Of a DNA stretch of 8,726 bases, positions 7,928 to 8,726 are shown one piece after another. Source of the stretch: a bacterium (lineage in GTDB: Bacteria; AUK180); assembly GCA_030622125.1 (NCBI GenBank), contig JAUXGM010000088.1, positions 1 to 8,726 of the forward strand, written 5' to 3'. The position numbers were made by a program, and so were the translations under genes. The notes under the pieces were generated by a model. That model did not search any database. It was not told the origin of the DNA and saw only the letters and a program-made list of their open reading frames with translations. Within the stretch, counting starts at the first letter, position 1. Each line of letters opens with the position of its first letter.

Positions 7928-8449
7928 ATGGCATATTACAATGAAGAAGTGAAAGAATATGAAGAAAAAATAATCAAGATCAATAGAGTTGCCAAGGTTT
8001 TAAAAGGTGGTAGAAAATTTAGTTTCAATTGCCTGATGGCTGTTGGTGATCGTCAAGGAAAGGTTGGTTTAGGATTTGGTAAAGCAAATGAGACAATGGA
8101 CGCAATGAAAAAAGCCGCAAATGAAGGAAAAAAAGAGATGGTTCAAATTCCAATCAATGAAAATGGAACAATACCATTTGAAGTTATAGGTAAATGGGGT
8201 AATGCACGAATCTTATTAAAACCCGCAAGACCAGGTACCGGTATAATCGCAGGCGGTTCTGCAAGAGTACTTTTAGATGTTAGCGGTATCAAGAATATTG
8301 TAACCAAAGCATTGACCAGCGGTTCGCAAATAAATATTGCAAGAGCTACTGTGGATGGGTTAGAAAAGATAAATTCTATTTACAAAAAATGGCAAATAAG
8401 GCAGACATATAAACAAGTGGAGAACAAAAATGAAACGGATAAGGGTTAA
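7928..8449 (+). CDS. rpsE: 30S ribosomal protein S5
   Basis: S5 acts at the mRNA entry site and in decoding fidelity; its N-terminal loop borders the spectinomycin site. It has 173 aa, a normal length. The double-stranded-RNA-binding-like N-terminal domain carries INRVAKVLKGGRKFSF at residues 18-33 and GKVGLGFGKANE at 44-55. The C-terminal domain has RPGTGIIAGGSARVLLDVSGI at 101-121. The spectinomycin-loop VLKGGR stretch is intact, with no deletion seen. AAAGGAG precedes the ATG by about 7 nt. The last 20 nt overlap the start of rpmD, whose ribosome binding site therefore lies within rpsE. Confidence 0.98.
   Translation: MAYYNEEVKEYEEKIIKINRVAKVLKGGRKFSFNCLMAVGDRQGKVGLGFGKANETMDAMKKAANEGKKEMVQIPINENGTIPFEVIGKWGNARILLKPARPGTGIIAGGSARVLLDVSGIKNIVTKALTSGSQINIARATVDGLEKINSIYKKWQIRQTYKQVENKNETDKG
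8419..8422 (+). promoter_or_regulatory. Ribosome binding site for rpmD inside rpsE
   Basis: GGAG lies 7 nt before ATG at 8430, inside the rpsE coding region. It supports a real 20-nt overlap of the two genes rather than a later rpmD start, and L30 homology begins exactly there (MKRIRVKVLRS). Confidence 0.75.
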
Positions 8450-8726
8450 GGTTTTAAGAAGTAGGATCAGAGAAAAAAATACTACAAAAAGAGTGCTTGA
8501 TGCTCTTGGATTGAAGAGAATTAGTCAAGTAAAAGGGTATCCGTATAATGATGCTGTGATGGGAATGCTTAGAAAGGTAGATCATTTGATTTCTTATGAA
8601 ATAGTGGAAGAAGAGGTTGGTAAGGAAAAAGAAAAGAAAGAAGAGGTTAGAGGCAATAAAGAAATGGACAATGGACAATTGACAATGGACAATGGAGAAA
8701 AAAAAGAAGAAGTTACCCCCTCCAGT
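8430..8726 (+). CDS. rpmD: 50S ribosomal protein L30 with C-terminal extension (3' partial)
   Basis: L30 is a small 50S protein near 5S rRNA. Residues 1-60 match it well: MKRIRVKVLRSRIREKNTTKR, then LDALGLKRISQ at 23-33 and a D-x-x-V-x-G-M-L-x-K-V segment at 41-50, ending YEIVE at 56-60. Bacterial L30 normally stops around here. This frame stays open for a further 39 codons to the window edge with no stop. The tail is charged and low in complexity (many Glu and Lys). It contains MDNGQLTMDNG at residues 79-89, encoded by a heptanucleotide repeat, between two KKEEV segments (69-73 and 91-95). Whether the tail is translated, ends soon after, or reflects an assembly fault cannot be decided here. 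No rplO sequence is reached. Confidence 0.9.
   Translation, partial: MKRIRVKVLRSRIREKNTTKRVLDALGLKRISQVKGYPYNDAVMGMLRKVDHLISYEIVEEEVGKEKEKKEEVRGNKEMDNGQLTMDNGEKKEEVTPSS
8634..8715 (+). repeat. Near-identical 16-bp direct repeats flanking the heptamer tract
   Basis: Bases 8634-8649 and 8700-8715 match at 14 of 16 positions and lie 66 nt (22 codons) apart in the same frame, each encoding KKEEV. They bracket the heptamer tract. An earlier related copy, GAAGAGGTT, occurs at 8610-8618 and recurs at 8640-8648. The pattern could come from duplication of a charged segment or from simple A+G bias. Confidence 0.6.
8663..8697 (+). repeat. Heptanucleotide tandem repeat, five AATGGAC-type units
   Basis: Five consecutive 7-bp units read AATGGAC, AATGGAC, AATTGAC, AATGGAC, AATGGAG, so units 1, 2 and 4 are identical and units 3 and 5 each differ by one base. 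Because 7 is not a multiple of 3, three units give a 7-residue peptide period (MDNGQLT). It lies inside the extended 3' part of rpmD. The DNA on both sides is A+G-rich coding sequence. Confidence 0.95.

Follow-up and report, generated by a model that had tools for sequence, protein, structure and literature searches.

The stretch of DNA analysed here (8,726 nucleotides, hereafter the window) is an entire contig, G000:C147, of a 2.08-Mb, 192-contig assembly from an uncultured bacterium of the candidate phylum Mcinerneyibacteriota, and it ends inside a dispersed repeat. The last open reading frame of the window (8430–8726, forward strand) follows directly on the S5 gene and encodes ribosomal protein L30 (rpmD, uL30); it is open through the final base, and the L15 side of the locus falls beyond the contig end. 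A strong constraint on length is generally assumed for ribosomal proteins, and this L30 reaches at least 99 residues against the usual ~60, length being a usual trait of L30 and not a criterion of its homology. A sequence-only reading of this DNA had described an L30 core that ends near residue 60 at YEIVE, at least 39 further open codons, and a Glu/Lys-rich extension containing MDNGQLTMDNG; that description is confirmed. The Pfam family Ribosomal_L30 (PF00327) matches residues 4–54 (E 8e-10), TIGR01308 matches L30 in the same genome (E 7.2e-13), and alignment with family members together with the structure model delimits a core of residues 1–60 (8430–8609, forward strand), with YEIVE at its end. 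In AlphaFold2 predictions made with the family alignment, mean pLDDT is 91–94 for residues 1–60 and falls to 50–53 in blocks of residues 61–99. The C-terminal tail (8610–8726, forward strand; EEVGKEKEKKEEVRGNKEMDNGQLTMDNGEKKEEVTPSS) consists of 39 codons open at the contig end, with 10 Glu and 7 Lys (17 of 39 residues), and is thus a charged, low-complexity segment with predicted disorder. Among the ribosomal open reading frames of the window, no comparable tail was seen besides that of L30.

The tail is composite. Its proximal part, EEVGKEKEKKEEVR (8610–8651, forward strand), lies upstream of an exact block shared with an S1-type gene and, as comparison of the flanks indicates, anchors the tail to L30. 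The shared block occupies the final 75 bp (8652–8726, forward strand), which match contig C50 exactly within the tail of its S1-type gene, and it is here that the contig breaks; C50 holds a 90-bp copy of the L30-tail repeat DNA at 98% identity. Straddling the start of the block is a GGTTAGA-type module, GAGGTTAGAGG (8643–8653, forward strand), read EVRG, whose family is frequent in noncoding DNA (26 noncoding matches in a sample made up of the stretches around repeat matches plus 20 other contigs, from which the coding-copy statistics below are also drawn). Within the block lies an array of the heptamer AATKGAC (8663–8696, forward strand; TRF period 7, 4.9 copies, 92% matches, score 61, with a 28-bp core), which is read MDNGQLTMDNG.

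To place this tail in its lineage, L30 cores were located by HMM in other genomes and the residues after the core were counted as tail. The comparison used one genome per species; the window's genome and G001–G004 belong to one family and G005 to another. The alignment of rpmD from close relatives, proposed as a check by the sequence-only reading, gave tails of 98–110 residues in three of the four other family genomes (104 in G001, 110 in G002 and 98 in G004) and 9 residues in G003, with 9 in G005 as well; outside the class, 44 of 45 loci, each a best-scoring L30 locus, have 16 residues or fewer after the core. The sole exception (L039, in the unrelated genome G010) carries ~55 residues of Lys/Ala tail after its L30 core and is possibly an independent case. 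The relatives' tails sit at the same place as that of the window. Those of G001, G002 and G004 contain no AATKGAC repeat, and that of G002 has a GGTTAGA-type module at the position matching the window's. The L30 of G003 has 65 residues and is followed directly by L15; a six-protein tree places G003 ahead of the tailed members, with weak bootstrap values of 39–75. On these comparisons the family probably acquired its L30 tail in a single event, loss in G003 being a possible alternative, and the tail itself is a real trait of the lineage. The suggestion of a lineage-specific surface extension therefore stands in its first half, with ~100-residue tails in three of four same-family genomes and none in the fourth, while the surface location is inferred.

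L30 is not alone: in the window's genome at least three more ribosomal proteins have long, presumably disordered tails. In 7/7 genomes of the class that were searched, L17 ends in a C-terminal tail (open frames of 186–292 codons), with repeat modules among these seven in the window's genome only; the L17 tail there runs to 170 residues in the interior of contig C110, with rpoA and tgt on either side. For S16, open frames measure 167–279 codons in the five family genomes, and those of an S1-type protein span 579–791 codons; the S16 and S1 tails are found in family members, with modules in the window's genome and some in G002. The S16 tails of G001 and G004 (L169, L170) hold long repeats of their own, EEAPAEEAKEEKPEAKDAPVAEEAKTEDAAASEVK-like and unrelated to the heptamer modules. 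Because the L17, S16 and S1 tails lie inside contigs, they are not assembly errors.

The repeat in the L30 tail is not a chance sequence. The element AATKGACAATKGACAAT occurs 93 times in the window's genome, 107 times in G001, 58 in G004, 11 in G002, twice in G003 and not at all in G005 or G006, and its reversed control gave 0 in every genome counted. Tails in the window's genome are put together, mosaic-like, from modules that also occur between genes: AATKGAC arrays are read (M/I)DNGQLT in tails, GTGAATA arrays VNSEE and GGTTAGA arrays E(V/D)RGSRLEV, and hairpin cassettes such as GCATGCCCAGCACCAATTTGGTGCGGGG are present in L17 and in noncoding DNA alike. AATKGAC has 34 noncoding versus 9 sense-coding matches in the sample, and in the 20 contigs picked regardless of the repeat, period 7 is the commonest tandem period (7 noncoding, 0 coding and 0 shuffled). 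The idea that L30 captured a genomic repeat is accordingly upheld, in that the same modules lie between genes elsewhere in the genome and occur in frame in other tails. Related modules are found in the L30, S1 and S16 tails of G002. When 290 genomes were searched for the module mosaic, the window's genome gave 16 matches, many in long open frames, and four other genomes gave one weak match each (E 0.002–0.008), three of the four with stops; among these 290 genomes, the window's genome is essentially alone in having modules in long open frames. An Rfam search of the window and of three loci that hold noncoding copies returned no RNA family. At L107 (~2428–2630) and in 25 further matches in sampled contigs, one conserved intergenic scaffold, AACAATATTAAACTCCGT...AAAGAGGGACATTACCGAAWAC, was observed with interchangeable heptamer arrays in one slot. 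Modules are also seen away from C-termini: a radical-SAM protein (PF04055, PF16199; L014 1907–3013, contig C76) appears to contain an internal in-frame insertion that carries an AATKGAC module, TIDNEQWTMDNEKKKKE, and two proteins with a likely membrane anchor (L222 and L013, contigs C44 and C58) have modules in linkers.

Coding copies of the modules share one orientation. All 29 copies read in sense; they are distributed over ten open reading frames, namely L30 and nine others longer than 150 aa, and each module family keeps a single reading register. Since copies within one gene are not independent, the sign test was made per gene, and 10/10 sense gives a two-sided probability of 0.002. Five antisense matches fall in short open reading frames (98–139 aa) that are probably not genes. 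Stop avoidance alone in AATKGAC frames was considered as proof of selection, but the argument is circular, a frame being called coding only if it is open; the usable test is the orientation bias. In intergenic AATKGAC arrays, the antisense reading is open in 42/42 frames and the sense reading in 28/42, so that the sense-only bias is not forced by stops. The two readings differ in character, the antisense being hydrophobic and Cys-containing (IVNCPLSIVN) and the sense hydrophilic. Repeated spacings of 94 codons in the C110 tail described below and of 80 codons in L17 mark in-frame duplications, which suggest that tails lengthen in this way.

The same repeats interrupt the assembly. There are 42 genome-wide matches to the L30-tail repeat DNA (E <= 0.001), and 25 of them have a contig end within 150 bp, where ~1.3 would be expected. 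As the window is a whole contig ending in this dispersed repeat, the missing L30 stop and the missing rplO are best read as assembly gaps; where the stop should appear, the repeat has produced a contig edge, which is no sign of an unlimited frame. Of the downstream region, in which the sequence-only reading proposed to locate the stop and rplO, a part was recovered. Contig C110 is a recognisable continuation of the window's operon on the secY side, carrying secY, adk, map, a 73-aa open reading frame at the place of infA, rpsM, rpsK, rpsD, rpoA, rplQ and tgt (names read from the sequences, with L17 assigned through Pfam and TIGR00059 and SecY through TIGR00967), and the L30 stop lies beyond the end of the window's contig. 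C110 begins with a 163-codon repeat tail that is open at the contig end and stops 4 nt before secY (L012 7757–8245, reverse strand); this is probably the tail of L15, an rplO product absent from the assembly. Neither TIGR01071 nor a relative's L15 used as query matched L15 in the window's assembly, and the gene order is L30-L15-SecY in the family relatives read (G001–G004) and in G005. The likeliest arrangement would be an rplO, with a tail of its own, on a short contig between two repeats that was discarded.

True loss of rplO, with the open tail on C110 as the far end of the L30 tail, would account for the missing L15 match and for a tail that stops just before secY. We consider it unlikely, because L15 lies between L30 and secY in G001–G004 and G005 and because the shortest contig met measures 2568 bp, so that a short, repeat-bounded rplO contig may have been dropped from the bin. 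More improbable still is an assembly chimera, an L30 gene with a normal end having been fused by the assembler to the repeat of the S1-type gene on C50. The identity of the last 75 bp with C50, the contig end at that point and the many contigs broken by repeats all speak for such a join, and since these 75 bp equal the S1 tail, the distal L30 tail does depend on how the assembler joined the sequence. However, the first 14 tail codons lie outside the shared block, in frame and without a stop; L30 tails occur at the same place in three same-family genomes, that of G002 with its GGTTAGA-type module at the same position; and the L17, S16 and S1 tails lie within contigs. An artefact near a repeat, as the sequence-only reading had allowed, thus explains where the contig stops but not the tail itself, tails of the same kind on L17, S16 and S1 being internal to contigs.

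Loss of the L30 stop codon, with read-through into an intergenic repeat and an accidental tail, had also been put forward. In its favour, the modules are intergenic elsewhere, and G003 has a 65-aa L30 directly before L15; but L15 follows L30 at once in relatives, leaving no spacer to read into, the tails of G001, G002 and G004 exist without the AATKGAC repeat, which makes a lost stop unnecessary, and random read-through would not yield modules that are all in sense. We regard this explanation as improbable. Less easily set aside, if still doubtful as it stands, is the proposal that the tails are selected functional elements (in ribosome assembly, solubility or partner binding, for example) for which the repeats are mere raw material. 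Four ribosomal proteins across the family have tails of differing sequence and similar charge-rich character, and bacterial S16 and L17 commonly end in low-complexity tails (PMC6821194); against this, tail length and sequence vary strongly among relatives, and one family member has no L30 tail. This proposal and the account that we prefer differ only in the strength of selection and are not mutually exclusive.

The account that we prefer, to which we assign a probability of about 0.78 as a whole, is that disordered, charged tails are a lineage-wide feature, later filled with coding-compatible genomic repeats and lengthened by in-frame duplication. In this family, L30, like L17, S16 and the S1-type protein, has a C-terminal tail that is long, charged and probably disordered. 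In the species of the window, these tails would then have been filled in frame with dispersed intergenic modules—7-nt arrays and small hairpin cassettes—that were kept only where the sense reading is hydrophilic and stop-free, and would have grown by in-frame duplication. Tails probably came first and modules later, because the relatives' tails lack the AATKGAC repeat. On the ribosome, the L30 tail is probably a flexible appendage that reaches out from the surface and is tolerated, and we infer both this location and a near-neutral role. The assembler, unable to pass the repeat, would have ended the contig there, leaving rplO, probably tailed, in the gap before secY. The hairpins, and the shared scaffold with different heptamer arrays in one slot, suggest that modules may move by replication slippage and recombination between copies, or with a helper enzyme.

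Elements of this account have precedents. Low-complexity C-terminal tails, rich in Ala, Glu and Lys and expected at the ribosome surface, are known from bacterial ribosomal proteins, with S16 and L17 among the usual carriers and L30 outside the list of recurrent ones (PMC6821194, 2019). The tails described here are likewise C-terminal and charged, but their filler is an identifiable dispersed genomic repeat common to unrelated proteins. In marine Beggiatoaceae, direct repeats of the heptamer TAACTGA are mostly intergenic, with some in open reading frames, mainly near protein ends (PMC4679880, 2015). The present repeats are also 7-nt and mainly intergenic, yet their units are AATKGAC, GTGAATA, GGTTAGA and relatives, several families are mixed with hairpin cassettes, and the carriers include several ribosomal proteins; furthermore, TAACTGA repeats inside open reading frames take the reverse orientation, which is free of stops (PMC4679880), whereas the copies described here take the more stop-rich orientation with the hydrophilic reading. 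Rickettsia palindromic elements are dispersed in frame in many unrelated genes, whose protein products tolerate them (Ogata et al., 2000, reviewed in PMC10969869), and they resemble the in-frame modules in ten unrelated open reading frames here, that of the radical-SAM protein included. As that review describes them, however, the Rickettsia elements are ~150 bp long, fall into defined families and reside in metabolic genes (PMC10969869), whereas those seen here are short arrays and mosaics, mostly in tails or linkers; the AATKGAC array is a direct repeat, and only the short hairpin cassettes are palindromic. Tandem DNA repeats also create disordered protein regions in the aaTR proteins of Borgs, where repeats are intergenic too (PMC9879509, 2023). 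Borg repeats in open reading frames are perfect amino-acid tandem repeats; here, by contrast, the unit is 7 nt, with seven codons per three units and dispersed copies, MDNGQLT-MDNG comprises only one and a half units, and the tails are mosaics. A search of the open-access literature found no description of several ribosomal proteins with tails built from repeats, which is no proof of absence. Both the capture of repeats by protein ends and low-complexity tails on ribosomal proteins are known; what appears to be new is that the two coincide on several ribosomal proteins.

A bolder extension, which we consider speculative and rather unlikely, is that mobile, coding-compatible intergenic modules repeatedly rebuild the tails of several core ribosomal proteins in this one lineage, so that the tails on the ribosome surface would vary fast in length and sequence from cell to cell or strain to strain, and ribosomes that differ in function may result. 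At the practical level, such repeats are a warning: they break short-read assemblies inside ribosomal operons, and core genes like rplO then look absent. For the biology of the lineage, the tails would provide a natural record of noncoding repeats becoming protein sequence, including the orientation and the frame that selection lets pass.
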